Source: an uncultured Actinomycetes bacterium
Lineage (GTDB): Bacteria; Actinomycetota; Thermoleophilia; RBG-16-64-13
Assembly: GCA_903873715.1 (NCBI GenBank)
Contig: CAIQPS010000122.1
Location: 1-37,528 of the forward strand
Length of the DNA stretch: 37,528 bases
Direction: 5' to 3'
Each line of letters begins with the position of its first letter. The first letter of the stretch is position 1. A program made the position numbers and the translations under genes. Under the pieces are notes generated by a model. It ran no database searches. It saw only the letters and a program-made list of their open reading frames with translations, and was not told the origin of the DNA. Below, one piece after another: positions 7,715 through 30,406 of this stretch.

Positions 7715-7779
7715 GTATCTCCGGCCGGCGGCACGCCGCGCGCCCGCTTGCGCCGAAAGCGACCGCGTTGCACTGAAAC

Positions 7780-7809
7780 AAAAAGGCCCTGCGGAAGCAG
7801 GGCCTTTTT
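7780..7809 (+). terminator. Strong bidirectional rho-independent terminator
   Basis: A perfect 13-bp stem (AAAAAGGCCCTGC paired with GCAGGGCCTTTTT) encloses a GGAA loop. It has A-rich and T-rich flanks, so it can work on both strands, ending the SpoIID-like gene and the opposing SHOCT gene. Confidence 0.93.
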
Positions 7810-7860
7810 CGTCAATACCGTCTGCCGCTCTCCGGCAGTGCCGGGGATGTCTGCGGCCGG

Positions 7861-8214: not shown

Positions 8215-8550
8215 CAGACACTCTCCTATTCTGGGCCTCCCGCAGGCCCGTTCCGATGTCCGGGCTAATATACGCCCCCGGGTATAAGAGAGCCGTAAAG
8301 GAAGCGCGCGGGCAGATACGCCGATCGCGGCGCGGACCACCTGTACCGCAGCTTCGCCCATGCCCTTCGCGGGTGCCCCGCGGCCGGCTGTGCGCGCATC
8401 CAGCCCCCCGGGTGGAGGGTCTCTCGACTCCTTTTTCTTCAACGAAAAAATTTCGTCTGCGCGCTAAAGGAAGGGGGGCGACCTGCCGACATATGGGATA
8501 GGCAAGTCAAGATCAAGTCTCATCTGTCAGGTACGACAGGAGGAAGCAGC
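8215..8550. other. 336-base divergent intergenic region
   Basis: This gap lies between the SHOCT gene (minus) and the CAP-protein gene (plus) and holds no convincing gene. It contains an AT-rich island (about 8430-8456) with the inverted repeat ACGAAA-AAA-TTTCGT at 8442-8456, a sigma28-like promoter candidate at 8465-8492, and a small hairpin, CTGTC with GACAG, next to the ribosome binding site of the CAP gene. I looked for known riboswitch cores and found none. Confidence 0.6.
8465..8492 (+). promoter_or_regulatory. Possible sigma28/WhiG-type promoter for the CAP-protein gene
   Basis: TAAA and GCCGACAT are separated by 16 bases; the FliA/WhiG consensus is TAAA-N15-GCCGATAA, so spacing is off by one and two bases of the second box differ. 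It lies about 60 bases before the start codon. It is suggestive only. Confidence 0.3.
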
Positions 8551-10308
8551 ATGAAAACCTCCGCAGCAAAGCCAAGAATCACCAGGATGCATTCGCGGCT
8601 CGCGCTCATCACTCTCGCCGCGGCGATCCTCGTGGCTGTGCTGTTCGGCGTTGTCCTGACCTCCGGGGCTCAGGCCTACAGCTACAACAATGAAGAGGCC
8701 AAGTTCGTCAAGCTGATCAACGACTACCGTGTCGCCAACGGCCTCAAAGCCCTCCTGGTGTCCGACCTCATCTCTCAGGCTTGCTACCGCCACAACCACG
8801 ACATGGCGGGCTACAAGTTCTTCAGCCACTACAGCCAGAAATCCGACTGGTTCGCCTACAACGCTCTTCCCTGGGACCGCATGACCCTGAGCGGTTACAA
8901 CTTCTACACCGAGAAGGGCGAGAACATCGCAGCCGGCCAGCAGACCGCCGAGGAAGTCTTCGCGGCGTGGAAAGCTTCGGCCGGTCACAACGCGAACATG
9001 CTCGGTGCTGCGTTCAAGGTGATCGGTGTCAGCCGCTACGAGCTGGCCGGCTCCCCGTACACCTTCTACTGGACCACCGACTTCGGCGGCTACGTGGATT
9101 CCACCGCCCATACCGTCTCCGTGACGACCGCTCCCGCCACCACCCGCTACGAGCAGAACAGCAGCGGCGTCAATTACTCCGGTGGCTGGAACACCAGCAC
9201 CAGCAGCAATGACTCGGGTGGCAGCTACAGCTACGTGAACGGCACCGGCTCCATGACCGTTACCTTCAACGGCACCTATCTCGCCTACGTCACCAAGAAG
9301 GGCCCGGCCTACGGTTATGTGAAGATCACCCTCGACAACGGTACCCCGGTCAACGTGGACCTCTACAACGGCGGCATGCTCTACCAGCAGAAAGTCTGGA
9401 ACACGGGCACCATCGCCAACGGCACCCACACCGTGAAGATCGAATGGACCGGTATCCGCCGCTCGGCCGCCACCTCCTGCAACATCGGTGTCGACGCCTT
9501 CGACATCTCCGGCAGCCTGGTCTCCGTGGCCACCCGCTACCAGCAGAGTGAAGCCAAGGCCATCTGGACCGGCACCTGGGCCACCGTCTCCAATAGCGCC
9601 TCCTCGGGTGGCAGCTACACCCAGAGCAACACGGCCGGCGCCAGCGCCACCATCAACTTCAAGGGCACGTCCCTCGCCTGGATCGCCACCAAGGGCGCCA
9701 CGATGGGCAAAGCCTACGTCTCCATCGACGGCGGCGCGGCCAAACTCGTCGACCTGGCGAGCAGCTCCTCCGCTTACAACCAGAGGGTGTACACGACCGG
9801 GACGCTGTCGAACACCACCCACACCGTCAAGATCACCGCCTACTCCGGCAACGCGGCCACCCAGTACATCAACATCGACGGCTTCGACATCTCCGGCACC
9901 CCGGTCGCCCCGGTCGTCAGCACCGCCTACATGCGGTACGAACAGACCGACTCCCACTTCGTGTGGGCCGGCACCTGGACCAGCGTCTCCAACAGCGCCG
10001 CCTCCGGTGGCAGCTACAAGCAGGCTTCGGCCAGCGGCGCCTCGGTGACGGTCAAGTTCACGGGCACCAGCCTCGTCTGGGTCGCGGAGCTCGGGCCGAA
10101 GATGGGCAAAGCCTCCGTCTCCGTCGACAGCGGCGCCGCCCAGATCGTCAACCTGAACCAGGCCACCGCCGCCTACGGGGTGAAGATCTGGAACACCGGC
10201 GACCTCACCTTCGGCGTCCACACCGTGAAGATCACCTGGTACTCGGGCAATGCGGCGGGTCTCGGCATCAGCGCGGACGCCTTCTCGATCCTGGGCACGC
10301 TGAACTGA
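8551..10308 (+). CDS. Secreted CAP-domain (SCP-like) protein with three C-terminal repeat modules
   Basis: A 585-residue exported protein. Residues 1-42 are a signal peptide (hydrophobic stretch LALITLAAAILVAVLFGVVL, ending AQA). Residues about 45-190 are a CAP domain: NDYRVANGLKAL, HNHDMAGYKFFSHYS, GENIAAG, EVFAAWKASAGHNANML and the final TTDFGG, with the His and Glu residues usual for the CAP cavity. Bacterial CAP proteins are secreted; their biochemical role is mostly unknown, with sterol or lipid binding and nuclease activity reported for some members. Three modules start near Y200, Y330 and Y463, clearly homologous to those of the upstream SpoIID-like protein. The start is ATG with a strong GGAGG upstream. 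The gene is followed by a GC-rich hairpin. Confidence 0.92.
   Translation: MKTSAAKPRITRMHSRLALITLAAAILVAVLFGVVLTSGAQAYSYNNEEAKFVKLINDYRVANGLKALLVSDLISQACYRHNHDMAGYKFFSHYSQKSDWFAYNALPWDRMTLSGYNFYTEKGENIAAGQQTAEEVFAAWKASAGHNANMLGAAFKVIGVSRYELAGSPYTFYWTTDFGGYVDSTAHTVSVTTAPATTRYEQNSSGVNYSGGWNTSTSSNDSGGSYSYVNGTGSMTVTFNGTYLAYVTKKGPAYGYVKITLDNGTPVNVDLYNGGMLYQQKVWNTGTIANGTHTVKIEWTGIRRSAATSCNIGVDAFDISGSLVSVATRYQQSEAKAIWTGTWATVSNSASSGGSYTQSNTAGASATINFKGTSLAWIATKGATMGKAYVSIDGGAAKLVDLASSSSAYNQRVYTTGTLSNTTHTVKITAYSGNAATQYINIDGFDISGTPVAPVVSTAYMRYEQTDSHFVWAGTWTSVSNSAASGGSYKQASASGASVTVKFTGTSLVWVAELGPKMGKASVSVDSGAAQIVNLNQATAAYGVKIWNTGDLTFGVHTVKITWYSGNAAGLGISADAFSILGTLN
9139..10305 (+). repeat. Three tandem copies of the shared surface module (CAP protein)
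   Basis: Copies start near codons at 9148, 9538 and 9937, with a period of 130-133 residues. They share Y(E/Q)Q, SGGSY, F-x-GT-LAW/Y, VDL, HTVKI and DAF with the neighbouring genes. Confidence 0.8.
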
Positions 10309-10336
10309 GACGCCGTCTGAGATGACGGATCCTCTG

Positions 10337-10364
10337 CCGGGCCCGCCGCATGGCGGGTCCGGTT
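10337..10364 (+). terminator. GC-rich hairpin after the CAP gene
   Basis: An 11-bp stem (CCGGGCCCGCC with GGCGGGTCCGG, one G-U pair) has a GCAT loop and is followed by only two T residues. It is a likely but weak terminator. A near-identical hairpin follows the papain-like gene. Confidence 0.6.
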
Positions 10365-10426
10365 GTGCCGTCTTAGTGCGCGCGTCCATTGACAGTTGGA
10401 TAGATACGTGGCAGCGTACAAGAGAC

Positions 10427-10463
10427 GGCAACAGCTTTACCGAAAGGTCAGGCTTTTTGTGCC
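10427..10463 (+). other. Possible structured 5' leader element of the papain-like gene
   Basis: Symmetric helices GGCA/TGCC, AGC/GCT and ACC/GGT stack on a GAAA tetraloop, separated by internal loops, 35 bases before the start codon. It has superficial likeness to a small regulatory RNA, but it does not match the conserved bases of any riboswitch class that I recognise. A TTGACA box sits upstream at 10389 without a clear -10. Confidence 0.3.
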
Positions 10464-10497
10464 AGGGGCGTGTCCGACGATGAAAGAGGGTGATGCG

Positions 10498-13278
10498 ATG
10501 TCGCGTTGGTGGGGCCGGTCAGGTTCGCAAGGGGTTTCGCCTTCTCGCCACCGGCAGACCTTCTTCCGTCCGGTGGCCTTCTCGGCTCTCGTGCTCGTCC
10601 TACTGCTGGCTCTCAGCGCCGGGATCGCTCTCGGCGTGGACTCCAAGCCGGCCGCCAAGCCCTCGGCAGCGCCGCTCAGCAAGGCCTTTGTGGCCTCGCA
10701 GCTGTTCGCCAAGGCTCCCGCACTCAACTCCGGGGCTCTCAAGAAGTCCGGCGGCCTGCGGCCCAGCCCGCAGGATCTGTCGTTCACCAAGGGCATGAAG
10801 GTGAAGACGTCGGCCGCGGCTGCCCTCACGGCTCTGCCCACCTCCTACGATCTGAGGGGCGTCCGCCTGACCCCGGTGAAGAACCAGGGCTCGTACGGCA
10901 CTTGCTGGGCCTTCGCGACGTTCGGGTCGTTCGAGTCGTACATCCAGCCGTATCTGACTCTGGGCGAGGTCACGGACTTCTCCGAAGACAACCTCGTCTC
11001 CAAGAGCGGCTTCAGCTACCCCGACCTCTACAACTCCGGCGGCCAGATGTACATGTCCACGGCCTACCTCACCCGGTGGTCCGGACCCCTGTACGAGACT
11101 GAAGATCCCTACCCGACGCCCACCAACACCGTCACCGGGGTCGCTCACAAGCACGTCCAGAACGTCGACTGGATCCCCGAGCGGGCCTCGGCGACCGACA
11201 ACGACAACATCAAGACCGCGGTCATGGCGAACGGTGGCCTCTACACCACCATGTACTATGACTTCGGCTCGCAGTACTTCAGCACCGCGAACTCGGCCTA
11301 CTACTACTACGGCAGCGGGGTCCTGAACCACGCGGTGGTCATCGTCGGTTGGGACGACAACTACCCTGCCACGAATTTCGCGACCGCGGCGCCGGGTAAC
11401 GGGGCATTCCTCGTCCGCAACAGCTGGGGCACCAGCTGGGGCAACGCCGGCTACTTCTGGGCCTCCTACTACGACAGCTCGTTCGGCACGAACGACCTTA
11501 CCGTCTCCTTCGACAGTGCCGAGCCGGTCGACAACTACAACGACATCTACCAGTACGACCCGCTGGGCAATGTCAGCAGCGTGGGCTATGGCAGCAACAC
11601 CGCTGCCTTCGCCAACGTGTTCACGGCGCGGGCCAGCGACTCCGTCGCTGCGGTGGGCTTCTACACCCTCACCCCGTCCACGACCTACGCGGTCTACACC
11701 GGTCCCGCCCTTGGCTCGCTCACCCTCAACACGAGTGGCACCATGGCCTACATGGGCTTCCACACGGTGACGCTCGCCACCCCGCTGTCGCTCACCGCCG
11801 GCCAGCCGTTCGTGGTGGCTGTGAAGGTAACCTCGCCCGGCACCACCTACCCGGTCGCCTTCGAGGCCGCCTACTCGGGGTATTCCAACAACGCCACGTC
11901 GGCGCCCGGCCAGAGCTACATCAGCTCCGGCAGCGTGACCAGCTGGTCTGACATCACCACGGCGTTCATGTCGAGCGCCAACGTCTGCCTAAAGGCCTAC
12001 ACCACCGGTGTCCCGGTCACCACGCCGAGCATCAGCGGTGTGAGCCCGGCCTACGGTGCGATCGCCGGCGGCAACACGGTGACCATCAGCGGCGCCCGGT
12101 TCGACGACATCCTGTCGGTGAGCTTCGGGGGTAGCGCGGCGACCGGCTACACCCGCGTCTCCTCCACCCAGATAACCGCGACGGTCCCGGCAGGGGCGGC
12201 AGGCTCCGTGCGGGTGAAGGTCGTCACCGCCGGCGGCGAGTCTCCCGACACCTCGGCCGACGACTACCTGTACGTCGGCTCCCCGGTCATCAGCAGCATC
12301 AGTCCGTCCAGCGGTCCCACCACAGGCGGGACGTCCGTGACCATCAACGGCTCGGGCTTCTACGACGTGACCGCCGTCACCTTCGGCGGTACGGCCGCGC
12401 AGAGCTACACAGTGAACTCCACGACGAAGATCACCGCAGTCGCTCCGGCCGCGGCGTCTGAGGGCGGCGTGCAGGTCCGGGTCACCGCGATCGGCGGCCC
12501 CTCCGGCACCACGACGTTCACCTACACCATCCCGGTCGCCCGGTACGAGCAGACCGCGAGCGGGATCGCCTATAGTGGCGGCTGGGGCTCGGTCAGTTCG
12601 ACGAGCGCCTCCGGCGGCACCTACATCCGCGGCGGCTCGGGCACCTCGGCGTACTTCGAGTTCACCGGCACCAGTCTGACCATCATCTCCACGAAGAGCA
12701 CGGCCATGGGCAAGATGTCCGTGACGGTGGACGGCGCCGCCCAGGTGGTCGACCTCTATAGCAGCACCACCCTGTACCAGCAGGCCGTCTATACCAAGTC
12801 GGTCAGCTCCGGCATCCACAGAGTCAAGGTGGCCTTCTCGGCGGTGACCGGCACCACCGGTAAGTACGTCAACATCGACGCCATCGACGTGGTCGGTAGT
12901 CTCAAGGCGACCGCCCGCGTGGAGCAGGGGTCCCTGACGCTCACCGGCTGGGCGACCGTGACCGGCGCCTATTCCGGCGGCAGCATGGCGACCGTGAACG
13001 CCGCCTCCACCGTGAGCTACACCTTCACGGGCGTGATGATCAACATCATCGCCACCAAGGGGACCGGCTACGGGCGCATGAGCGTGTCGCTCGATGGCGG
13101 TACGGCCGTCACGGTCGACCTCTACAACAAGACGACCGCCTACCAGCAGGCTGTCTGGAAGAGCGGCCTCCTGGCCTACGGCTCCCACACGGTGACCATC
13201 ACCTGGCTGGGGACCAAGTACAAGGCCGCCACCTCCACGATGATCGACCTCGACGCGGTGGACACCATCGGGTCGTAG
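10498..13278 (+). CDS. Secreted papain-like (C1) cysteine protease with lectin-like, IPT/TIG and repeat modules
   Basis: A 926-residue exported protease. The signal sequence is residues 1-50 (hydrophobic LVLVLLLALSAGIALG), then a propeptide-like segment to about 110. The C1 domain begins LPTSYDLRG and shows all catalytic residues: Q130 (KNQGSYGTCWAF), C136, H278 (NHAVVIVGWDD) and N308 (RNSWGTSWG). A lectin-like domain, common after bacterial C1 domains, spans about 330-505. Two IPT/TIG immunoglobulin-like domains start near residues 510 and 595. Two copies of the module shared with the upstream genes start near residues 683 and 808. The start is the ATG at 10498, with AAAGAGGG seven bases upstream; an open frame extends to 10396 without support. 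It likely acts at the cell surface on proteins or peptides; its substrate is unknown. Confidence 0.92.
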   Translation: MSRWWGRSGSQGVSPSRHRQTFFRPVAFSALVLVLLLALSAGIALGVDSKPAAKPSAAPLSKAFVASQLFAKAPALNSGALKKSGGLRPSPQDLSFTKGMKVKTSAAAALTALPTSYDLRGVRLTPVKNQGSYGTCWAFATFGSFESYIQPYLTLGEVTDFSEDNLVSKSGFSYPDLYNSGGQMYMSTAYLTRWSGPLYETEDPYPTPTNTVTGVAHKHVQNVDWIPERASATDNDNIKTAVMANGGLYTTMYYDFGSQYFSTANSAYYYYGSGVLNHAVVIVGWDDNYPATNFATAAPGNGAFLVRNSWGTSWGNAGYFWASYYDSSFGTNDLTVSFDSAEPVDNYNDIYQYDPLGNVSSVGYGSNTAAFANVFTARASDSVAAVGFYTLTPSTTYAVYTGPALGSLTLNTSGTMAYMGFHTVTLATPLSLTAGQPFVVAVKVTSPGTTYPVAFEAAYSGYSNNATSAPGQSYISSGSVTSWSDITTAFMSSANVCLKAYTTGVPVTTPSISGVSPAYGAIAGGNTVTISGARFDDILSVSFGGSAATGYTRVSSTQITATVPAGAAGSVRVKVVTAGGESPDTSADDYLYVGSPVISSISPSSGPTTGGTSVTINGSGFYDVTAVTFGGTAAQSYTVNSTTKITAVAPAAASEGGVQVRVTAIGGPSGTTTFTYTIPVARYEQTASGIAYSGGWGSVSSTSASGGTYIRGGSGTSAYFEFTGTSLTIISTKSTAMGKMSVTVDGAAQVVDLYSSTTLYQQAVYTKSVSSGIHRVKVAFSAVTGTTGKYVNIDAIDVVGSLKATARVEQGSLTLTGWATVTGAYSGGSMATVNAASTVSYTFTGVMINIIATKGTGYGRMSVSLDGGTAVTVDLYNKTTAYQQAVWKSGLLAYGSHTVTITWLGTKYKAATSTMIDLDAVDTIGS
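12541..13275 (+). repeat. Two tandem copies of the shared surface module (papain-like protease)
   Basis: Copies start near 12544 and 12919. The second has diverged at its beginning (VEQGSL, without the usual YSG-W spacing) but keeps GY-GRMSVSLDGG, VDLYN and SHTVTITW. Confidence 0.75.
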
Positions 13279-20397: not shown

Positions 20398-20429
20398 CCT
20401 TCTGGGCGCCTCGTCAGCCGCCCAGAAGG
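20398..20429 (-). terminator. Hairpin across the stop codon of the GT39 gene
   Basis: A perfect 11-bp stem (CCTTCTGGGCG with CGCCCAGAAGG) has the GT39 stop codon in its ten-base loop. There is no T-run after it on the minus strand, so it may be a terminator or an mRNA 3'-end stabiliser. Confidence 0.4.
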
Positions 20430-22414
20430 TAGAGCGTGCCGGAGGCCGACCCGCCGTATGCCGCCGAGTCGACGGCCGTGCCGTTCGCCGCCACCCATTC
20501 GGTGACGGCCTGGAGGGTGGTGCGCGCCACTTCGGAGGTGGTGCCGGCGCTCTTGGCCGACGAGGTCGATGTCAGGAGCACGTACCTCAGTTCTCCCGAC
20601 GCGACCATCTGCTGCAGTTCGTCCACCGTGGGATAGGGGTCCCGGCTCTTGTAGCCGCCGATGGTCACCACCGGCTCGCCCGTGGCCAGGATCAGGGGGA
20701 CCGACTCGGTGGTCGATTGGACCGCGACGAGATACTTTGCATCGCCCTGGTTGCTCTCCAGATAATCCAGGAGGCCTTGGTCGACGGTGAGGTCGGAGCC
20801 GTTGGAGGTGGATCCGGGACCGGTGGTGCGCGGTCCCGCCGACGCGGTGTTGCCGGTGACCGATCGGGCGATGGTGCTGGCCGAGTACGCGAACGGCCCG
20901 GCGAGCAGCGTGGCGGTCGATAGGACTGCCACGGCGGTGGTCACGAAGACGATCGCGGAGCGCCGCCGCCGGCGGCCCGAAGACGTGCTGCGCAGGTTGA
21001 GGACGACGAGCGACCCGGCCGCGCCTACTGCACCGCAGACCAGGACGGCGGTAGCCAGACCCGGGGCGTATCCGGAGACCCGGCCGAGCATGGCCGAGGA
21101 GAGAGCGGCGGTGCCGGCGATCGCGGCGGGGAGCATCCACGAGGCCCAGCGCCGGGCGCGGCCCGCGTCCCAGAGCCCGACGGCGCCGGCGCCTGCCAAT
21201 GCCGCCACGCCGGGCGCCAACACCACGGTGTAATAGGAGTGGAGCGTGCCGGAGGCCTCGCTGAAGACCGCGATCATCACGACGGTCCACAGGCCCCAGA
21301 GCAGGTAGCCTGCCCGCGACCGGTCGGTGCGCGGCCGCCGGATGGTGACGGCGAGACCGGCGACCAGTCCGGCGAGGGCCAGCGGGAGCAGCCAGGCCAC
21401 CTGGCCGCCGAGTTGCGAGTTGAAGATCCGTAGCCAGCCTGGGTCGCCCGCCAGGTTGGCGCCCTGCGCGGTGGTGTCGAGGACGCCGGCGGTGCGGCCG
21501 AGGATGAGCGCTATCCAGGAATCGGAGGTGGTGCCGCCCACGTGGGGGCGCGAAGCGGCGGGCCACAACTCCACTATCGCCACCCACCAGCCGGCGGCCA
21601 CGATCATGGCGCCGAAGGCTGCGAGGAGTTGCCAGATGCGGCGGCCCATCTTGGGCGGACCGGCCACCAGATAGGTGATGCCGAGGGCGGGGACGATCAT
21701 CAGGCCCATGAGCATCTTGGTGAGGAAGGCGAAGCCGAGGATGACCCCGGTCAGCGCCAGCTTGCGGGTGGAGCCCTTCTCGAGGGCCGACCAGAACGCC
21801 CAGGTGCCGAGGAGCAGCAGGAGGGTGAGGAAGGCGTCGGGGTTGTTGTAGCGGAAGATGAGCGCCGCGACCGGGGTGAGCGCGAAGGCCAGGGCGGCCA
21901 GGAGGCCGGCGATCTCGCCGCGCCAGCGCCGAACGAGGTGCCCGAGCACCGCGACCGAGGCCACGCCGGCCAGGGCCTGGGGAACGAGCATGCTCCAGCT
22001 GGAGAAGCCGAAGATGCGCCCGAAGATCGCCATGGCCCAGATGGCCACCGGCGGCTTGTCCACGGTGATGAACGATCCGGGGTCGAGGGACCCGAAGAAG
22101 AAGGCCTTCCAGCTGACCGTTGCGCTCTTGACCGCGGCGGCGTAGTAGCTGTTGGCCATGCCGTTCCGGGAGAGGGACCAGGTGAAGAGGACGAGCGCGA
22201 GGACGGCGATCGCGGCCCGGCCGGCGATCGCCCACCAGGGTGTCTCAGCGACCACCTGCGCGGCACGCCCGCGAAGCCGCTCCACCCGGCCGCCCGCCGC
22301 CGCACGGGCGGCGGGGGCAGCGGGTTCGGCTGCGCCGAGTGCGCCGGGCGCCGCAGGCGCCACCTGGGCCACCTGGGCTTCAGAGACTTGGGTCACGAGG
22401 TCGTCGGTCCGCAT
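20414..22414 (-). CDS. GT39-family membrane glycosyltransferase (YkcB/ArnT-like)
   Basis: A 666-residue polytopic membrane enzyme. The N-terminus (1-58) is an Ala/Pro-rich cytoplasmic tail; the first transmembrane helix starts near residue 63, followed by the outer loop NSYYAAAVKSATVSW and LDPGSFITVDKPPVAIW (D119, K120, PP121-122), the hallmark of GT39/ArnT-like enzymes that use polyprenyl-phosphate sugars outside the membrane. Many helices follow to about residue 500, with FRYNNPDAFL near 170-180. The C-terminal 150 residues are an extracytoplasmic soluble domain (DLTVDQGLLDYLESNQ, ATGEPVVTIGGYKS) as in YkcA/YkcB-type enzymes. Acceptors may be proteins, wall polymers or lipids. It is 22 bases downstream of the phosphodiester glycosidase gene and probably in one operon with it. 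Confidence 0.93.
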   Translation of the reverse strand: MRTDDLVTQVSEAQVAQVAPAAPGALGAAEPAAPAARAAAGGRVERLRGRAAQVVAETPWWAIAGRAAIAVLALVLFTWSLSRNGMANSYYAAAVKSATVSWKAFFFGSLDPGSFITVDKPPVAIWAMAIFGRIFGFSSWSMLVPQALAGVASVAVLGHLVRRWRGEIAGLLAALAFALTPVAALIFRYNNPDAFLTLLLLLGTWAFWSALEKGSTRKLALTGVILGFAFLTKMLMGLMIVPALGITYLVAGPPKMGRRIWQLLAAFGAMIVAAGWWVAIVELWPAASRPHVGGTTSDSWIALILGRTAGVLDTTAQGANLAGDPGWLRIFNSQLGGQVAWLLPLALAGLVAGLAVTIRRPRTDRSRAGYLLWGLWTVVMIAVFSEASGTLHSYYTVVLAPGVAALAGAGAVGLWDAGRARRWASWMLPAAIAGTAALSSAMLGRVSGYAPGLATAVLVCGAVGAAGSLVVLNLRSTSSGRRRRRSAIVFVTTAVAVLSTATLLAGPFAYSASTIARSVTGNTASAGPRTTGPGSTSNGSDLTVDQGLLDYLESNQGDAKYLVAVQSTTESVPLILATGEPVVTIGGYKSRDPYPTVDELQQMVASGELRYVLLTSTSSAKSAGTTSEVARTTLQAVTEWVAANGTAVDSAAYGGSASGTLYLLGG

Positions 22415-22436: not shown

Positions 22437-23441
22437 CTAGCCGACGAACAGGATGTCGCTCACTGCCCGCTCGCCGTTCTGCTGCGACGGGTCGTTCACG
22501 ACGTTGCCCATGAAGTACAGGGTCGAGGAGCCGCCGCCGTCGAGGTTGTAGGCGGTGGTGCAGCCGAGTTGCTGGAAGATCTGGGCGAACTCGGTGAGGG
22601 TCACGCCCCTGCTGTAGCCGGGGCTGCGCCCATCCACGACCACGAACACGTAGTGGTTGGAGTCGATCATGCCGATGCCGCTCCGCGGGTTCACTCCCTG
22701 GATGGGGTGGCGGGCGTTCGCGTCGGCCTCATAGGTGTCGAGGCCGCTCGCCACCTGGCCGTCCACCAGCAGGCCCGGGCCGAACGAGTAGGTGTTCCAG
22801 ACGCCGTCGGCCAGGAGGTCCGCGGCCGTGGTGGTGGTCTCGTCGTACACCTTCATGGTGCCGTCCTTGTAGATTGCCAGGCCGGTCCGGGTGGGCACGT
22901 CGCGGTAGACGACTCCGTTGCGGATGATGATCCCGTCATCGCGGGAGCTGTAGTAGTCGCCGTTGATGGCCACGATCGCGTTGTTCGCCTGGGCCATGGT
23001 GGAGGTGTCCTGCACCCGGCCGCCGTACGACCCGCTGGCGAACGCGGACTGGAGAGTCGCACCGGCCGCCAACTGGATGTCGGCCACGTAGTAGGTGATC
23101 GTGTCGTTGCCGGAGCCGGTGGTCACCTTTTGGATGGTGATGGTCTTGGTCGCGCTGGTGTAGCTGGTCTCCGTGGCTGTGTAGTCGCCGGAAGCGGCGC
23201 CGGTCGGCGCGGTCGCGGCGGCGGTCGCCGTCCCGCCGCCGGACGTCGATGCGGTCGTGGCGGCCGCCTGGCCCGTCGCGTCGCCGATGGAGGCGGTCTG
23301 GGTGGAGGTCGCGGTTTGGCCGGCCCCCGCGGTCGTGCTGGTACTCGCCGACGAGCCGCAGGCCGCGAGTCCCAAGGCCGCGAACCCGGTCAACGCGAGC
23401 AGCAGTGCGCCCGCGATCGTCAGTCTGATGGTCCGTGTCAT
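22437..23441 (-). CDS. Phosphodiester glycosidase (NAGPA-domain) lipoprotein
   Basis: A 334-residue lipoprotein: signal with lipobox LAAC (C28), then an 80-residue Ser/Thr/Ala/Gly linker, then a NAGPA/phosphodiester glycosidase domain (about 110-334). Family landmarks are AINGDYY, RSGIGMI, VVDGRSPGYSRGVTLTEFAQIF, YNLDGGGSSTLYF and the ending VNDPSQQNGERAVSDILFV. The human relative removes GlcNAc from a phosphodiester; bacterial members are thought to act on phosphodiester-linked sugars of wall polymers. The ribosome binding site is AGAGAGGA. It is first in an operon with the GT39 enzyme and divergent from the CotH/VTC operon. Confidence 0.93.
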   Translation of the reverse strand: MTRTIRLTIAGALLLALTGFAALGLAACGSSASTSTTAGAGQTATSTQTASIGDATGQAAATTASTSGGGTATAAATAPTGAASGDYTATETSYTSATKTITIQKVTTGSGNDTITYYVADIQLAAGATLQSAFASGSYGGRVQDTSTMAQANNAIVAINGDYYSSRDDGIIIRNGVVYRDVPTRTGLAIYKDGTMKVYDETTTTAADLLADGVWNTYSFGPGLLVDGQVASGLDTYEADANARHPIQGVNPRSGIGMIDSNHYVFVVVDGRSPGYSRGVTLTEFAQIFQQLGCTTAYNLDGGGSSTLYFMGNVVNDPSQQNGERAVSDILFVG

Positions 23442-23679
23442 CGAAATCCTCTCTGGTCCTCTCGCGTCTTCATAGTACGTGCCGGCCGGCCGACGGGGAT
23501 CCCGCTCCCCGTCAGTACCGCACCGGTCCAGTCCATGGCCCGAGGCTACCTGGCCCCGAGTAAAGCCGGTGTGAAGCGGCCGGCGGCGCGTATCCGCAAG
23601 GTCAATCCCGACTTACGCCGGATTTACCTGGCCCCCGCGATACTGGGGCCATCGTGAAGTCGTACAAGGAGTCCGTAGG
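23442..23679. promoter_or_regulatory. Divergent control region of the glycosidase and CotH/VTC operons
   Basis: The region holds a perfect 8-bp inverted repeat GACGGGGA/TCCCCGTC (23492-23513), an 11-base direct repeat TACCTGGCCCC at 23547-23557 and 23625-23635, and a 7-bp inverted repeat TGGCCCC/GGGGCCA (23629-23651) that overlaps the second copy. A possible -10, GATACT, sits at 23639 between its arms. These look like operator sites; the regulator is unknown. Confidence 0.45.
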
Positions 23680-24204
23680 ATGAAGAAACGCACAGTCAGC
23701 GCGCTGTTCGCAGCAATCGCCCTGTCGGCGGGCGTCGCTCTCTTCGCCGCCTCGTGCGGCGGCACCGCCCAGACGGCCACCACCGCCACCTCGGTGGCCA
23801 CCACCGCCGTCAGCTCGGCCACCGAGACCACAGCGGCTTCCGGTACTGCCACCTCCGCCGCCGTGGCGCAGAGCGGCACCATCGTGGTGAGCGGCCTGGT
23901 TGACTACCCCATGAGCTTCACGTCCGTGGACATGGACTATATGGATTGGGTCACCGTCACCCAGAGCGGCACCGCCTATGAGGGCGTGCACCTGAGCGAC
24001 ATCTGGACGTTCTACGGCGTGCAGTCCACCGCCAAGACCGTGACGGTCACCGCCGCCGACGGGTCCAAGACCCAGGTCACCCTTGCCGACATCAGCAGCG
24101 ACTCGATCCTCGCCGTCGGCGACGACCAGAGCTTCACCCTGGTGATGCCAGGCATGACCGCCGCCGAGCTCGTCCAGGGCGTCACCGCGATGGATTTCGA
24201 ATAG
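23680..24204 (+). CDS. Lipoprotein with sulfite-oxidase/molybdopterin-binding-like fold, cofactor cysteine absent
   Basis: A 174-residue lipoprotein: lipobox AASC (C26), Thr/Ala/Ser linker (27-68), then a domain with the pattern of the oxidoreductase molybdopterin-binding family: VSGLVDYPMSFTSVDM, YEGVHLSDIWTFYGV and VTVTAADGSKTQVTLADI, ending in MPGMTAAELVQGVTAMDF. Only one cysteine exists (the lipid-modified one), so a molybdenum cofactor cannot be held in the usual way; it is more likely a binding or structural relative. It is the first gene of the operon, four bases before cotH. The ribosome binding site is AAGGAG. Its likely role is an outer-face partner of the system; function unknown. 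Confidence 0.75.
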   Translation: MKKRTVSALFAAIALSAGVALFAASCGGTAQTATTATSVATTAVSSATETTAASGTATSAAVAQSGTIVVSGLVDYPMSFTSVDMDYMDWVTVTQSGTAYEGVHLSDIWTFYGVQSTAKTVTVTAADGSKTQVTLADISSDSILAVGDDQSFTLVMPGMTAAELVQGVTAMDFE

Positions 24205-24208
24205 ACGG

Positions 24209-25660
24209 ATGCTTCGCCGGGTGACAGCCCTCTTGATGCCCTTTCGGCGCGTAGCCGCCGTGACCGTCGCCGTGGTGTTCTTCGGCGCGGCCGGCCTGGC
24301 CGCGGCCGGGCTCGCGGTGACGTCCTGCGGGTCGCAGGCCCCGGCCGGGACCACGGGCGCCACCGGCACCGTGACGTCCGCGGCGACCGCCACGACCGGG
24401 GCTGCCACTTCCGGCGCCACCTCGACCACCGCGGCTGCCACCTCGACCACCGCAGCCGCCGCCACCGTCGCCTCCGTCGCCTCCGGGCCCGCCACTGCTG
24501 CGGACGCCGGCGCCGTCCTCTTCGACGCCACGAAGGTCCACACCATCAGCGTGACCTTCTCCCAGACCGACTACGACGCCATGATCGCCGCCTACAAGAC
24601 CGACGGCACCAAGGAGTGGATCTCCGCCACGGTCACCATCGACGGGCAGACCTTCCAGGACGTGGGCATGCGGCTCAAGGGCAATTCCTCCCTGCGCGGC
24701 TTGGCGAACGGGCGCAACAAGGGCCCGGGCGGCACGGTCTCGGCCACGGAACCGCAGGGTCTGCCGTGGCTCATCCGCCTCGACAAGAACGTGGAAGGGC
24801 AGAACTACGACGGCATCACCGATATCGTGGTGCGGTCGAACAACTCGGCCACCTCGCTCAACGAAGCCGTGTCGCTCGAGCTGCTCCAGCAGGCCGGACT
24901 GGCCTCCGAGCGGGCGATCGCGGTGAAGTTCACGGTCAACGGCGGCACGGCCAAGCTCCGCCTGGCCACCGAGTTGCCCGACGACACCTGGATGGCCGAA
25001 CACTTCTCGGCCACCGGCGCCCTCTACAAGGCCGAAGCCAGCGGCGACTACAGCTATCGTGGCACCGATCCCGAGAGTTACACCGACGTCTTCGACCAGG
25101 AGGCGGGCAAGGACAACACCGACCTCACCCCGCTCATCCAGTTCCTCGATTTCGTCAACAACTCCGACGACGCCACCTTCAACAGCACCCTCGCCGACAA
25201 GCTCGACGTCGATGCCCTCGCCACCTATCTGGCGATGGAGGAACTCATCGGCAACTTCGACGACATCGACGGCCCCGGCAACAACTCCTACCTCTACTAC
25301 GACGCCGAAACCGGAAAGTTCACCGTCGTCCCCTGGGACCACAACCTGGCCTTCGGCGGGATGGGCGGCGGGAATCCGGGCGGCGGAGCGCCGGCAGCGG
25401 CCGGTGGCGACACCCAGGCCCGCGGCCCCCGCGGCAAGACCAACCGCCTCGTCCAGCGTTTCCACGCCAATGCGGAGTTCGAGGCCCTGTACCAGGAGAA
25501 GCTCGCCGATCTGCAGGCGACGCTCTACGAGAGCGGCGCCGCATCGGACATCCTCGACACGTGGGTGCAGGTGTTGAAGACCCAGGCATCGGACCTGGTC
25601 GACACGGCGACCATCGACTCCGAAGCCGCGAAGATATCCGCGTACTTCCAAGCCGGATAG
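24209..25660 (+). CDS. CotH-family secreted kinase-like lipoprotein
   Basis: A 483-residue exported protein: lipobox VTSC (C40), long Thr/Ala/Ser linker (about 44-95), then a CotH domain. Family landmarks are FSQTDYDAMI, MRLKGNSS (M154-S161, with K157 a probable nucleotide contact), LPWLIRLDKN, SLNEAVSLELLQQAGL, ELIGNFDDIDG (D351) and VVPWDHNLAFGG (D377, N379). The two aspartates match the positions known to be needed in Bacillus CotH, an atypical kinase that phosphorylates spore-coat proteins. The protein is predicted to act outside the membrane. It is followed 13 bases later by the beta-helix gene. This organism need not sporulate: CotH proteins are widespread in non-sporulating bacteria. 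Substrates are unknown; the adjacent surface proteins are candidates. Confidence 0.93.
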   Translation: MLRRVTALLMPFRRVAAVTVAVVFFGAAGLAAAGLAVTSCGSQAPAGTTGATGTVTSAATATTGAATSGATSTTAAATSTTAAAATVASVASGPATAADAGAVLFDATKVHTISVTFSQTDYDAMIAAYKTDGTKEWISATVTIDGQTFQDVGMRLKGNSSLRGLANGRNKGPGGTVSATEPQGLPWLIRLDKNVEGQNYDGITDIVVRSNNSATSLNEAVSLELLQQAGLASERAIAVKFTVNGGTAKLRLATELPDDTWMAEHFSATGALYKAEASGDYSYRGTDPESYTDVFDQEAGKDNTDLTPLIQFLDFVNNSDDATFNSTLADKLDVDALATYLAMEELIGNFDDIDGPGNNSYLYYDAETGKFTVVPWDHNLAFGGMGGGNPGGGAPAAAGGDTQARGPRGKTNRLVQRFHANAEFEALYQEKLADLQATLYESGAASDILDTWVQVLKTQASDLVDTATIDSEAAKISAYFQAG

Positions 25661-25673
25661 ACTGCAGGGGACC

Positions 25674-26723
25674 ATGAGACGCAGATCCAACAAGAGAGAC
25701 ATGATCGCGCTGGTGATAGCGCTGGCGCTGGTCGTCGCCGCGATCGTCACCACGGGTTTCTTCTACCACGCGCCGAGTGCGGCAGAGCCGGTGTCGGCAG
25801 CCGTGCTGGAAGCGGCGGTGTCCGACACCGAGGATGCATACGCCAAAGGCGTGGTGGACATCGACCTGTCCGACCTCGGTTCCCTGGACACCGACAGCGT
25901 GTCCGTCAATGACGGCACCCTCGAGATCGGGTCCGCGGGGGTGTACCGGCTCACCGGCAGCCTCACCGGCCAGATAGAGGTCAACACCAAGGGCAAGGTC
26001 TACCTGGAACTCGACGGTGTCAGCGTGACCAGCCCGTCGGGCCCGGCGCTGCTGGTGAAGAGCGCCAAGAAGCTAACCCTGGTCCTCACCGAGGGCAGCA
26101 CCAACACCCTGGCCGACACGGCCGGCGGCGACGCCGACTCCGCGACACTGAGCAGCAACGACTCGCTGTATTTCACGGGGGCGGGCAGCCTCACCGTGAC
26201 CGGCAACAACAGCGAAGGCATCGCCAGCGACGACGCCATCGTCATCCAGAACGGCACCATCGTGGTCACCGCAGCGGGCGATGGCCTCGCGGCCAACGAC
26301 GACATCACCATCAACGGCGGCGACATCAGCGTGACGGCCAAGGGCGACGGGCTCGACTCCAACGGAACGGTGCACGTGAACAGCGGCACCCTGGCCGCGT
26401 TCGGAGGCACTGCTCAGGGCGAGGGCGGCGTGGACGTGCGCGGCGACTTCGTGATCACCGGCGGGACGGTCGTGGCCTGCGGCAACCTCATGGCCGCCCT
26501 GGCGGACGATTCCCGGCAGACCTCCGTCTACGTGACCTCGGCGGCCGTGCAGGCGGCCGGGACGGCCGTGAGTCTCCAGCGGGACGGCGAAGAGGTCTTC
26601 GTCTTCACGCCGGGCGTCGCGTATGAGAACGTTCTCGTCAGTTCGGCCGATCTCACCAGCGGCGTCACCTACCAAGCGTACCTGGGCGGCAAGGCCGGCA
26701 ATCTGGTGCTGGCCTCGAGGTGA
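25674..26723 (+). CDS. Cthe_2159-type carbohydrate-binding beta-helix protein, membrane anchored
   Basis: A 349-residue protein with an N-terminal signal anchor (about residues 10-29, IALVIALALVVAAIVTTGFF) and a right-handed beta-helix of the Cthe_2159 family (often called carbohydrate-binding domain-containing). Repeating rungs such as LEIGSAGVYRLTGSL, IVIQNGTIVVTAAGDGLAANDDITINGGDI and GDGLDSNGTVHVNSG are plain. The founding member binds acidic polysaccharide (polygalacturonate). The C-terminus has the family-typical VSSADLTSGVTYQAYLGG. A weak SD, CAGGGG, precedes the ATG. It sits between cotH and the VTC polymerase, so it may be a kinase target or surface anchor of the system. Confidence 0.9.
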   Translation: MRRRSNKRDMIALVIALALVVAAIVTTGFFYHAPSAAEPVSAAVLEAAVSDTEDAYAKGVVDIDLSDLGSLDTDSVSVNDGTLEIGSAGVYRLTGSLTGQIEVNTKGKVYLELDGVSVTSPSGPALLVKSAKKLTLVLTEGSTNTLADTAGGDADSATLSSNDSLYFTGAGSLTVTGNNSEGIASDDAIVIQNGTIVVTAAGDGLAANDDITINGGDISVTAKGDGLDSNGTVHVNSGTLAAFGGTAQGEGGVDVRGDFVITGGTVVACGNLMAALADDSRQTSVYVTSAAVQAAGTAVSLQRDGEEVFVFTPGVAYENVLVSSADLTSGVTYQAYLGGKAGNLVLASR

Positions 26724-26727
26724 TGAG

Positions 26728-27750
26728 ATGAGCGAGCCCGTCACGACCGCCCCGCCCAACCTGCACATAAGCGTCACCAGCCGGGAGTCCTCGGCGCCGC
26801 GCCTGCGCGAGCGGGTGGAGCAGAAGTTCTTCATCCGGCCCGACCGCATGGACCTGGCCATGAGCCTGCTCTTCCGCGTGTGCCGGCGCGACCCCGAGTT
26901 CCCCGACGGGCAGGTCAACAGCCTCTACTTCGACACCTACGACCTCGATGAGCACCTGCGCTCCGACGCCGGAGACTCCGACAAGGACAAGATCCGCATC
27001 CGCTGGTACGGCGAGGAGTTCGACCCGCACAGGCGCGCGGCGGCGGGCGGCGCGGACCCCGGCCGCATCGGCGCCGAGGCGGCGCCCTCGGGCACCGGCA
27101 CCGGCAACACCGGCACCGCCGCAGTCCCCGAGACCATCAGGGTCTGGCTGGAACGCAAGACCCGGCGCGGATTCGCCTCCACCAAGCAGCGGGTGGCCGT
27201 GCCCGTCCCCACCTCGGCGCTGGACCACTCCGTGCTGAGCAGGGGCATCGTGGCGCCCGGGCTGCTCGTGTCCACCATGGCCGGGTTCGGCTTCTTCCCG
27301 CCCAAGGCGCGGTTCTGCCCGGTCATCGCCATCTCGTACTCGCGGTACCGCTTCGTGGAGCCGGTCACCGGCTTCCGCATCTCCATCGACTGGCGCATCC
27401 GGTCGTCCATGGTGATGCCGGGGCTGGGCCGGGGCGAGCGGGGGCTCGGACTGCCGGGTGCGATCGTAGAGGTGAAGGGCAGCCGGTTCGACATGCCGCC
27501 GGCGCTGCGGGCCCTGGCGGAGATCGGCTCGTCGTGGACGCGCTACTCGAAGTATTCGTCCAGCATCGACGCCCACGCCGCCGACCTGGGCAGCGTGTCG
27601 CGCACCTGGCCGACCGGCGTGATGGAGCGGGAGCCCGGACATATCGGCTGGGTGCCGGTGGCGGTGGCGAGCGGGGAAATGGAGCGCAATCTGGCCGCGG
27701 GATGGGCCGGTGTGTCGGGGGAGACTCTGGAACTGGATAGCGAGGGATGA
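26728..27750 (+). CDS. VTC-domain polyphosphate polymerase
   Basis: A 340-residue soluble protein of the VTC/CYTH-like triphosphate-tunnel fold, related to the catalytic domain of yeast Vtc4 that makes polyphosphate from ATP. Basic and acidic tunnel residues are visible: VEQKFFI near residue 32, the SLYFDT strand, KIRIRWYG, VWLERKTRRGF, an arginine-rich YSRYRFVEP, ISIDWRI, VEVKG (E248, K250) and the final YSKYSSS (K275). A Gly/Ala/Thr-rich insert interrupts residues about 100-130. The chosen ATG at 26728 follows GAGGTG; longer frames start inside the preceding gene. The stop overlaps the next gene in an ATGA. The enzyme lacks membrane segments, so the adjacent DUF4956 protein is its likely membrane partner. 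Confidence 0.92.
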   Translation: MSEPVTTAPPNLHISVTSRESSAPRLRERVEQKFFIRPDRMDLAMSLLFRVCRRDPEFPDGQVNSLYFDTYDLDEHLRSDAGDSDKDKIRIRWYGEEFDPHRRAAAGGADPGRIGAEAAPSGTGTGNTGTAAVPETIRVWLERKTRRGFASTKQRVAVPVPTSALDHSVLSRGIVAPGLLVSTMAGFGFFPPKARFCPVIAISYSRYRFVEPVTGFRISIDWRIRSSMVMPGLGRGERGLGLPGAIVEVKGSRFDMPPALRALAEIGSSWTRYSKYSSSIDAHAADLGSVSRTWPTGVMEREPGHIGWVPVAVASGEMERNLAAGWAGVSGETLELDSEG

Positions 27751-28424
27751 CCATGTGGCAGAACGTAGTGTCGGTGTGGCAAGGGATGCAATCCAACCTT
27801 GGTTGGACCGAGGCGCTGATAGCGCTGGGGTTCTCCGTGGTCTTCTCCCTGATCGTGTACTTCATGTACCAGCTGTTCTACGGCTCGCGGCATATCGGTG
27901 CCGGCGTGCAAAGGATGTTCCTGCTCGGCGGCCCGGCCATCACCGTGCTTTTCCTGGGCATCCAGACGTCCATCCCTCTGTCCCTGGGTCTGCTGGGCGC
28001 CCTCTCCTTCGTGCGCTTCCGCACCCCGGTGAAGGACCCAGCTGAGATCGGCTTCCTGCTGGTGCTCATCGCGTGCTCCATCGGGGCGTCGTCCGGCAAC
28101 TTCATGTTGATAATGCTGCTGCTCGTGGCGGTGTTCGTGATCCTTCTGGTCAAGTGGTTCCTGCGCGACCGTGCGGCGGTCGGAGCCAGGGGCAGCCTGA
28201 TGCTCTCGGTGGACCAGGCCGAGTTCGACAAGCTCGAACAGGGCATCAAGGAGTTCCTCGCCGGCCGGCTCAAAGGCCTCAGCCTCGAGTCGATGTCGGT
28301 GGTGGACGGCAGGGTGAACCTGCAGTACCAGTACAGACAACAGGCGGCCTTCGATTGGACCGGGTTCGCGAGCGATCTCAACCGGTCGACGGCGCCCACG
28401 ACAGTGGAGATATTCGTCGGATGA
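27747..28424 (+). CDS. DUF4956 membrane protein
   Basis: A 225-residue protein with about four transmembrane segments in its first 140 residues and a cytoplasmic ferredoxin-like C-terminal domain. The family signature LGALSFVRFRTPVKDPAEIGFLL (about 90-112) is intact. DUF4956 genes commonly neighbour VTC-domain genes; a membrane partner or polyphosphate channel is suspected but unproven. The gene overlaps both neighbours by four bases (ATGA), so translation is tightly coupled with the VTC polymerase and the following beta-helix lipoprotein. Confidence 0.93.
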   Translation: MTMWQNVVSVWQGMQSNLGWTEALIALGFSVVFSLIVYFMYQLFYGSRHIGAGVQRMFLLGGPAITVLFLGIQTSIPLSLGLLGALSFVRFRTPVKDPAEIGFLLVLIACSIGASSGNFMLIMLLLVAVFVILLVKWFLRDRAAVGARGSLMLSVDQAEFDKLEQGIKEFLAGRLKGLSLESMSVVDGRVNLQYQYRQQAAFDWTGFASDLNRSTAPTTVEIFVG

Positions 28425-30406
28425 ACAAGAAGATACTGACGGCCGCCGTGGCCGTCGCGCTGGTGCCCTCACTGGCGCTCGGCACGGTGGCCTGCTCCAG
28501 CGCGGGAACAGCCAGTGCGGTCACGGTGATCGGGCAGAACGGATCGACCGCAAGCGGGTCGGCCGGGGCCACGACCGCCGTGTCCACCAGTGGCTCGGCG
28601 TCCACCGCGGGCAGCTCGTCCGGTAGCTCGTCGGGCGCGAGCACGAGCGCCGCGGTGGCGACCGAAGCCCTCGCCGCGAGCCACAAGACCGAGGACACCG
28701 AGACCACCTACGACGCCGCGAGCGCCTATCAGGTCACGCTCAACGGCGACTCGATCGGCTTCACCGGCACCGGCGCCACCGTTGACGGCAGCACCATCAC
28801 CATCACCCAGCCGGGCGTCTACGTCATCAGCGGTACGCTGAGCGACGGCCAGATCCGCGTGGACACCAGCGTCGGTGGGAACGTGCGCCTCGTGCTGAAC
28901 GGCGCGGACATCACGTGTTCCATCAGCGCCCCCATCTACATCAAGAACGCCGACAAGACCATCATCACCCTGGCCGACGGCACCCAGAACAAGGTCACCG
29001 ACGGCACCACCTACAAGGTCGAAGACTCCCAGTCGAACGAGCCCGACGCGGCGGTGTTCAGCAAGGACGACCTCACCATCAACGGATCCGGCTCCCTGAC
29101 GGTGAAGGCCAGCTATAAGGACGGCATCTGCAGCACCAACGACCTGCGCATCACCGGCGGCACCATCACCGTGGATGCCGCGAACGACGCCATCAAGGGC
29201 AAGGACAGCGTCGGCGTCAAGGCAGGCACCCTCGTCCTGACGGCAGGCGCGGACGGCCTCCAGTCAAGTAACGACACCGAGGCCGACAAGGGCTATATCG
29301 CCATCGAGGGCGGGACGTTCACCATCACCTCCGGCGGCGACGCCCTGCAGGCCCAGACCACGCTCGCTGTGGCAGGCGGCGAGTTCACCATCACCACGGG
29401 TGGCGGCAGCGCCAACGGCAAGCAGCACAGCCAGCAGCAGTTCGGCGGCCCCGGCCAGAACAACACCACCACCAGCGCCGACTCGACCGGCACCTCCGAC
29501 AGCGCCAAGGGCCTCAAGGGCACCGGCGGCGTGTTCGTGACCGGCGGCACCATCACCATCGACGCGGCCGACGACTCGGTGCACTCCAACGGCACCGTGA
29601 AGATCGCGGCCGGCACTCTCAACCTCAAGACCGGCGACGACGGCATCCACGCGGACGCGACCATCCAGATCGACGGCGGCGACATCACCATCGCCCAGTC
29701 GTACGAAGGTATCGAGGCGGCCGTCGAGACCATCAACGGCGGGACCATCCACCTGACCTCCAGCGACGACGGCATCAACGTGGCCGGCGGCAACGACAGC
29801 TCGGCCAACAACAACGACCCGTTCGCGGCCAATATGAGCAACCAGTTGTTCATCAACGGTGGCTACATCTCGATCGATGCGGGCGGCGACGGCGTGGACT
29901 GCAACGGCCCGGTGGTCATGACCGACGGCACCGTGATCGTCAACGGCCCCACCAACAACGGCAACGGCGCCCTCGACTACGGACAGCAGTTCAAAGTCAC
30001 CGGCGGGACCATCGTGGCGGTGGGCAGTTCCGGCATGGCGGAGGTCCCGAGCGAGGATTCCAGCCTCTGCTCCATCATGGTCAACTTCGACTCGGCGCAG
30101 CAGGCCGGCACCCTGGTGCACATCGCCACCGCGGACGGCCAGGAGATCGTCACCGTGGCGCCGAGCAAGCAGTTCCAGTCGATCGTGGTGACCTCAGCGG
30201 CCATCAAGCAGGGCACGAGCTACAAAGTGTCACTGGGCGGCTCGTACTCCGGCGGCACGGCGAAGGACACGGTCATGACCGGCGGCTCGTACTCCGGCGG
30301 CACCGACTATGCCACGCTCGCGGTTCAGAGCATCTTGACCACTTCCGGCCAGACCGGCGGCTTCGGCGGCCCTGGCGGCGGCGGGCGCAAGCGGCCCGGC
30401 GGTTGA
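28421..30406 (+). CDS. Large Cthe_2159-type beta-helix lipoprotein
   Basis: A 661-residue surface lipoprotein: lipobox TVAC (C25), Ser/Thr/Gly/Ala linker (26-80), then a long beta-helix of the Cthe_2159 carbohydrate-binding family with many rungs (for example GSLTVKASYKDGICSTNDLRITGG and DDGIHADATIQIDGGDI). A Gln/Ser/Thr-rich loop lies near residues 330-360. The C-terminal region carries a family-typical segment (VVTSAAIKQGTSYKVSLGG), then a duplicated GGSYSGGT and a Gly/Arg/Lys tail. The ATG at 28421 overlaps the DUF4956 stop (ATGA); the open frame further upstream is out-of-frame coding DNA of that gene. It is the last and largest gene of the operon and the probable surface product of the system. 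Confidence 0.92.
   Translation: MNKKILTAAVAVALVPSLALGTVACSSAGTASAVTVIGQNGSTASGSAGATTAVSTSGSASTAGSSSGSSSGASTSAAVATEALAASHKTEDTETTYDAASAYQVTLNGDSIGFTGTGATVDGSTITITQPGVYVISGTLSDGQIRVDTSVGGNVRLVLNGADITCSISAPIYIKNADKTIITLADGTQNKVTDGTTYKVEDSQSNEPDAAVFSKDDLTINGSGSLTVKASYKDGICSTNDLRITGGTITVDAANDAIKGKDSVGVKAGTLVLTAGADGLQSSNDTEADKGYIAIEGGTFTITSGGDALQAQTTLAVAGGEFTITTGGGSANGKQHSQQQFGGPGQNNTTTSADSTGTSDSAKGLKGTGGVFVTGGTITIDAADDSVHSNGTVKIAAGTLNLKTGDDGIHADATIQIDGGDITIAQSYEGIEAAVETINGGTIHLTSSDDGINVAGGNDSSANNNDPFAANMSNQLFINGGYISIDAGGDGVDCNGPVVMTDGTVIVNGPTNNGNGALDYGQQFKVTGGTIVAVGSSGMAEVPSEDSSLCSIMVNFDSAQQAGTLVHIATADGQEIVTVAPSKQFQSIVVTSAAIKQGTSYKVSLGGSYSGGTAKDTVMTGGSYSGGTDYATLAVQSILTTSGQTGGFGGPGGGGRKRPGG
30236..30303 (+). 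repeat. In-frame 23-base direct repeat near the end of the large beta-helix gene
   Basis: The 23-base unit encoding GGSYSGGT occurs at 30236-30258 and 30281-30303, a 45-base (15-codon) period. Confidence 0.8.

Follow-up and report, generated by a model that had tools for sequence, protein, structure and literature searches.

What might a homologue of the polyphosphate polymerase VTC do in a bacterium, placed in one operon with a DUF4956 membrane protein and several exported proteins? The question is raised by six genes at positions 23,680 to 30,406 of contig CAIQPS010000122.1 (GenBank assembly GCA_903873715.1), which comes from an uncultured Actinomycetes bacterium of the lineage Thermoleophilia; RBG-16-64-13. 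The whole stretch of DNA analyzed, 37,528 nucleotides, is referred to as the window. We find that VTC and DUF4956 are strictly coupled in two phyla and that the exported partner of this pair is exchangeable, the window being a variant with both usual partners, CotH and Cthe_2159. All six open reading frames are on the same strand:

23680-24204, + strand: gene 1, lipoprotein with a partial Oxidored_molyb (sulfite-oxidase-type) domain (PF00174, E 7.6e-4, below cut-off)
24209-25660, + strand: gene 2, exported CotH-type atypical kinase with lipobox Cys40 (PF08757, E 4.8e-34, 118.8 bits)
25674-26723, + strand: gene 3, Cthe_2159-type beta-helix protein carrying a membrane anchor or signal at its N-terminus (PF14262, E 8.1e-44, 150 bits)
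26728-27750, + strand: gene 4, homologue of the VTC-type triphosphate-tunnel polyphosphate polymerase, cytosolic (PF09359, E 7.6e-15)
27747-28424, + strand: gene 5, DUF4956 protein, an MgtC-superfamily transmembrane domain followed by a C-terminal ACT/ferredoxin-like domain (PF16316, E 6.2e-11)
28421-30406, + strand: gene 6, Cthe_2159-type beta-helix lipoprotein with lipobox Cys25 (PF14262, E 4.8e-95, 318 bits)

The genes are separated by gaps of 4, 13 and 4 bases, followed by two 4-base ATGA overlaps. The coordinates thereby bear out the positions, gaps, overlaps and strand given in a preliminary description of this DNA, as well as the single operon that it proposed. Five of the genes match their Pfam families above cut-off (CotH, Cthe_2159 twice, VTC and DUF4956), and the match of gene 1 is weak.

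Coupling of VTC with DUF4956

The distribution of the two families was followed in even samples of 198 Actinomycetota and 199 Bacillota genomes, plus 14 control genomes. DUF4956 was detected in 19 of the 198 Actinomycetota and VTC in exactly those 19. The Bacillota carried both families in an identical set of 27/199 genomes, with 35 copies of each and equal numbers per genome, and the same three controls contained both (a Bacteroides, Corynebacterium glutamicum and Methanosarcina acetivorans); the C. glutamicum genome matches CotH as well. With the genomes taken as independent, identical sets would arise by chance with a probability of about 7e-27 in Actinomycetota and 6e-34 in Bacillota; kinship among the genomes lowers the weight of these figures, but not that of the zero exceptions. 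The two genes are adjacent in nearly every case, except in G583, with the genes on different contigs, and in G652, where they lie about 2 kb apart with CotH in between. Two DUF4956 genes of the window's class that seemed to lack VTC are no exceptions to the coupling, since one (L182) is a true MgtC and the other (L094/L181) a broken DUF4956 fragment. The fragment belongs to a genome (G273) from another family of the class, has no VTC nearby and looks like decay of the module. A second DUF4956-like gene, L097:12304-12999, is located 3.6 kb past the first, has no VTC of its own nearby and may be MgtC. The membrane partner of VTC that the preliminary description had seen in DUF4956 is thus confirmed by strict coupling, and the core families co-occur far beyond chance, more strongly than had been supposed.

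The window VTC exceeds the PF09359 cut-off of 23 bits with 55.5 bits, and a profile built with it matches yeast Vtc4 (E 3e-7). The top Foldseek matches of its AlphaFold2 model are all VTC chains (best E 7e-12), and the same search also returns adenylate cyclase, thiamine and RNA triphosphatases. Mean confidence of the model (pLDDT) is only 67, being low in an insertion and in the C-terminal tail. These regions correspond to residues 97-135 (loop insertion) and 290-340 (tail), both of which are missing from clostridial homologues of about 223 amino acids. Alignment places Vtc4 residues R264, R266, K281, K294 and R361 at R90, R92, K144, K153 and R206 of the window VTC, and R373, E426, K428 and K458 at R217, E248, K250 and K275. 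Across 37 relatives these nine show complete or nearly complete conservation. The Vtc4 positions other than R264, R266 and E426 are those that we take to line the tunnel, placed by counting along the alignment. A yeast VTC complex mutated at the latter three (R264A/R266A/E426N) has been described (PMC9911596). The preliminary description had pointed to E248, K250 and K275; all three are kept, and the tunnel appears intact. Its view of VTC as a polymerase agrees with the Pfam match, the Vtc4 profile, Foldseek and the tunnel residues, by all of which the protein is polymerase-like. Judged by these features, the window VTC would make polyphosphate from ATP.

The window genome (G000, 97% complete) was searched family by family, and neither PPK1 nor PPK2 was found. 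VTC is therefore its sole recognized polyphosphate synthase. Most members of the same family also lack PPK1.

For DUF4956, the AlphaFold2 model (pLDDT 76, pTM, the predicted template-modelling score, 0.57) shows about five membrane helices and a beta-alpha-beta-beta-alpha-beta domain. Comparison with MgtC by hhalign gave 96% (E 4.6e-9) over 201 of 225 columns, compared to less than 1% for seven unrelated neighbor families. The solved MgtC C-terminal domains 7qa5 and 2lqj were returned by Foldseek at ranks 4 and 5, with a weak E of about 0.008 and amid other ferredoxin-like folds. PF02308, the family of MgtC proper, was not detected in the gene 5 product even with E values up to 1 allowed, and was matched by two of nine relatives (best E 0.016). 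Since no PF02308 match lies above cut-off, we regard DUF4956 as a distinct family of the MgtC superfamily. A profile search against solved structures gave no match by sequence, and a search of viral contigs with the single DUF4956 was also negative. The Streptococcus intermedius homologue has already been described as MgtC plus ACT (PMC12345266), and membership in the MgtC superfamily was noted in mBio 2025. The window genome additionally carries a true MgtC gene (G000:C98). R90 and R92 of DUF4956 (RxR) are invariant even across distant subfamilies, and the closer relatives share one invariant lysine besides. Together, R90-x-R92 and K96 form a conserved basic hairpin on the predicted cytosolic face.

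Exchangeable exported partners

A profile with the window CotH matches Bacillus cereus CotH (5jd9/5jda, E 4e-24). The protein keeps the invariant residues R155, K157, N159, D192, N244, E255 and D351 as well as the near-invariant W376, D377 and N379 (PWD377), and it is assigned as a kinase by family, with predicted activity. Of the two beta-helix proteins, that of gene 6 is a lipoprotein, as the preliminary description had stated for both; gene 3 has a single cysteine (residue 269) and no lipobox cysteine, and its product is therefore not a lipoprotein. A homologue of gene 3 (59% identical) takes the same operon position in L180. Gene 6 occupies the slot that CotH has in most other loci, and its homologues follow DUF4956 directly on the 3' side in L178 and L180.

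Neighborhoods of the VTC-DUF4956 pair were counted with domain-only profiles in 50 loci of the even samples that are complete on both sides, window included. CotH alone was found in 31, Cthe_2159 alone in 12, both in two (the window and L218) and neither in five (Fisher P = 4e-6 for the alternation, loci being treated as unrelated). A larger, DUF4956-driven set of genome contigs, mostly from Clostridia, gave 52 with CotH alone, 15 with Cthe_2159 alone, three with both and three with neither. One or the other partner thus adjoins the pair in 45/50 complete loci and CotH in 33/50, in line with the frequent neighborhood of CotH, VTC and DUF4956 that the preliminary description had stated. By Pfam, signals and neighborhood counts, CotH and the beta-helix proteins are exported and genuinely linked to the pair, also as described there. 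The 31/12/2/5 split, however, identifies them as alternatives and not as a kinase and its substrate.

The five other loci from the window's own family carry both partners around the pair in three cases (L177, L178, L180) and only CotH in two (L176, L179). On a joined DUF4956 and VTC tree, the partner label changes at least eight times by a quick method, and for Cthe_2159 at least four changes are forced by well-supported branches. Genome-wide searches for CotH were negative in G027, G065, G141 and G173, all of which have VTC, DUF4956 and Cthe_2159. The control genome of Bacillus subtilis contains CotH and lacks both VTC and DUF4956. Among the loci with neither partner, three have an apparently exported protein after the VTC gene: a lamin-tail-like (LTD-like) lipoprotein at L225:5545-6156 and leucine-rich-repeat-like proteins at L227:4722-5861 and L235:7495-8661. 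Judged by eye, these are apparently further exchangeable partners. L191 has no partner beside its pair, and the same genome carries CotH on a short separate contig. The window genome itself contains a second CotH lipoprotein of 569 amino acids (L183:9100-10809, on G000:C124), which is not located beside VTC or DUF4956. It is 29-38% identical to the operon CotH in two stretches and resembles the kind of CotH found in L177 and L179.

Function of the module

Genes of this kind have been met before. CotH, a polyphosphate polymerase and DUF4956 were reported together as an accessory set of pel loci (PMC7112168), and in S. intermedius deletion of DUF4956 (SIR_1592) or CotH (SIR_1594) cuts aggregation by more than half in artificial sputum medium, with more Pel in the absence of SIR_1592 and less in the absence of SIR_1594 (PMC12345266). 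The statement of the preliminary description that no function of the set had been described is therefore outdated. The same study found no such synteny outside pel loci (PMC12345266). In our samples, PelG above the family cut-off was absent from 67 of the 72 module-bearing genomes and present in five, with a sub-threshold match in one more, and most copies of the module consequently lie outside pel. A PelG search of the window genome gave no match, and neither pel genes nor a pelDEADAFG linkage was seen in the window. Two earlier statements, on the lack of a phenotype described for the set and on the restriction of the three-gene synteny to pel loci, are thereby corrected. We conclude that the gene set itself is already known.

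Building on gene content, apparently intact polymerase residues, strict coupling, predicted MgtC kinship and repeated partner exchange, we infer polyphosphate synthesis, transport by DUF4956 and binding or use by surface proteins. We tentatively favor, at somewhat less than an even chance, a polyphosphate synthase coupled to the membrane, from which polyphosphate would be delivered to the cell surface, to be retained or used by interchangeable proteins. The cytosolic VTC polymerase (26728-27750) would dock on the MgtC-like DUF4956 (27747-28424) as a two-protein machine and lengthen polyphosphate from ATP, and the basic hairpin of DUF4956 (R90-x-R92, K96) would capture the emerging chain and pass it outside. 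The ACT-like domain may gate synthesis, by analogy to the SPX domain in yeast. Outside, CotH or a Cthe_2159 beta-helix protein, here both, would hold or use the product or act in the same envelope process. The envelope link is supported by the adjoining regulators, which are of envelope type: pairs of an OmpR-type regulator and a histidine kinase lie up to 3.5 kb upstream in 35/80 loci, and in some CotH loci their place is taken by RsgI-type proteins and by lipoproteins, with long Asp/Tyr/Ser/Thr repeats at the end. In a bolder version, which we hold to be more doubtful, VTC and DUF4956 together would be to bacteria what the VTC complex is to yeast, namely a synthesis-coupled polyphosphate exporter with an MgtC-type fold as conduit, interchangeable surface proteins and the role of sole polyphosphate system in PPK-less lineages.

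Several points speak against export. Known MgtC proteins are regulators and are not known to be transporters. The evidence for a cytosolic RxR consists of the positive-inside rule and a moderately confident model (pLDDT 76, pTM 0.57). MgtC is an inhibitor of ATP synthase and a partner of PhoR (cited in PMC12345266). In S. intermedius, aggregation persists in the strain deleted for the VTC homologue SIR_1593, which does not figure among those described as altered (PMC12345266); because no change of aggregation was reported, the VTC product may be dispensable there.

The main rival is a regulatory role, in which polyphosphate stays in the cytosol, the MgtC-like DUF4956 senses through its ACT-like domain and controls VTC, ATP synthase or phosphate signaling, and the exported partners are merely co-regulated envelope proteins. 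The likeness of DUF4956 to MgtC over its whole length, the ACT-like domain, the action of MgtC on ATP synthase and PhoR (cited in PMC12345266) and the two-component or RsgI regulators common beside the module all suit this role. So does the DUF4956 deletion in S. intermedius, which raised Pel and lowered aggregation, unlike the CotH deletion (PMC12345266). However, it leaves unexplained why about 90% of loci have an exported partner next to the pair and why unrelated exported families were repeatedly swapped, and we consider it rather unlikely. Less likely again is another product, with the VTC-like enzyme transferring phosphate to a lipid carrier or a glycan, which after export would be acted on, as a phosphoglycan, by CotH or the beta-helix protein. 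Triphosphate-tunnel enzymes do have varied substrates, as the Foldseek matches illustrate; a phosphodiester glycosidase and a YkcB-type glycosyltransferase adjoin the operon, the latter lying inside it in L179; pel loci carry the set (PMC7112168), and Cthe_2159 binds polygalacturonic acid (PMC6712302). Yet Vtc4, itself a polyphosphate polymerase, is the best match both by structure and by profile, tunnel residues included, and none of the glycan gene families recurs consistently in the neighborhood of the module.

In the preliminary description, polyphosphate exported through DUF4956 was to serve CotH as phosphate donor for the beta-helix lipoproteins or a bound glycan. ATP is scarce outside cells, CotH is the most frequent neighbor of the pair, and the RsgI-type exported protein with Asp/Tyr/Ser/Thr repeats upstream in some CotH loci could be a kinase substrate. 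But in B. subtilis CotH functions although the genome has no VTC, the two exported partners are mutually exclusive in nearly every locus, and the four pair-bearing genomes named above have no CotH at all. The S. intermedius VTC deletion was, moreover, unlike the CotH deletion (PMC12345266). With partner alternation, CotH-less genomes and published deletions all against it, a general role of polyphosphate as CotH donor is rejected, and we regard the mechanism as very improbable. We give almost no credence to an incidental grouping of unrelated envelope genes in one transcript: the lack of conservation of gene 1 and both divergent neighbors would agree with it, but it is contradicted for the core by identical VTC and DUF4956 genome sets in two phyla and by a gene order conserved in dozens of loci. 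For gene 1 it may hold.

About one in ten sampled genomes carries VTC with DUF4956, and matches extend to a Bacteroides and an archaeon. A tested biochemical function of bacterial VTC or DUF4956 was not found in the literature searched. Should the pair indeed synthesize and export polyphosphate, bacteria would have a second polyphosphate system beside PPK, and those without PPK a source of polyphosphate; MgtC-fold proteins would gain a possible transport role, and polyphosphate would be linked to surface adhesins and the biofilm matrix. Because the pairing is strict, the partner is swapped and PPK is absent, the function can be tested directly, and the widespread pair is a good target for the question of whether bacteria export polyphosphate to their surface.

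Surroundings and related systems

Gene 1 reaches 19.5 bits for Oxidored_molyb against a cut-off of 24. Its sole cysteine is the lipobox Cys26, so the usual molybdenum-ligand cysteine is missing, and its sulfite-oxidase-type domain is probably non-catalytic. A homologue was found in none of the five other same-family loci (0/5). Gene 1 is accessory and lies outside the conserved operon unit. Of the sulfite-oxidase-like lipoprotein that had been counted to the set, the lipobox stands, the domain match is weak and conserved membership does not hold; a working sulfite oxidase or core member is rejected on account of the weak match, the missing cysteine and the lack of conservation.

Two genes diverge from the operon:

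22437-23441, - strand: exported NAGPA-type phosphodiester glycosidase (PF09992, E 1.9e-41)
20414-22414, - strand: YkcB/PMT_2-type glycosyltransferase (PF13231 and PF24878)

Neither is conserved at that place in same-family loci. The NAGPA-type gene is absent from those loci and is a possible functional neighbor. A YkcB-type homologue of the second (L179:8101-9456, 68% identity over 396 amino acids) lies inside a same-family operon, directly 3' of DUF4956 with a 4-base overlap, on a contig with masked stretches. Between the NAGPA-type gene and the operon, the 11-base direct repeat TACCTGGCCCC occurs at 23547-23557 and 23625-23635, 78 bases apart; it is a possible regulator site and may be due to chance. 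Neither a sigma-70-type promoter upstream of the operon nor a convincing terminator after it was found, and because of the G+C content of the genome these searches are uninformative.

Further upstream, positions 28-13278 hold envelope and surface genes, including an 1100-amino-acid protein with GT4 and WecG/TagA domains, MurJ, SpoIID, and CAP and papain-family proteins; three of the proteins share CE2_N-like domains. In CotH-type loci elsewhere, exported RsgI_M/PepSY proteins are encoded just upstream of VTC (L120:4982-7288, L130:5055-7294, L168:6024-7022, L189:10664-11686, L032, L134). They end in long Asp/Tyr/Ser/Thr tandem repeats such as TDYGPNNDGVTDYND, which are possible CotH substrates or Ca2+-binding repeats. 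Downstream of the module no recurrent gene family was recognized by eye.

Compared with known systems, DUF4956 resembles the MgtC/SapB family in matching its profile over the full length, in having a helical membrane part and in the predicted ferredoxin-like fold of its C-terminal domain; it is unlike the family in the second arginine of RxR and in the coupling to VTC. The Gram-positive pel accessory set (S. intermedius SIR_1592-1594) has the same three contiguous families, with DUF4956 as MgtC transmembrane domain plus ACT, whereas the window lacks pel genes, adds two beta-helix genes and has CotH upstream of VTC. In NELoc-2 of Clostridium perfringens (PMC2879425, PMC11677781), the gene after each VTC gene likewise encodes a membrane protein as long as DUF4956, and CotH, sigma and anti-sigma genes and a glycosyltransferase are further present; it differs from the window in having two VTC genes and no reported Cthe_2159 gene, and in being an accessory locus of certain strains. 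The yeast VTC complex (Vtc1/Vtc3/Vtc4) shares with the window pair a homologous tunnel domain with its key residues and the combination of a catalytic protein with a membrane part, and it couples synthesis to translocation via basic residues of that membrane part (PMC9911596). In contrast, the window VTC has neither an SPX domain nor a fused transmembrane domain, no vacuole is involved, and its membrane partner is MgtC-like instead of Vtc1-like.

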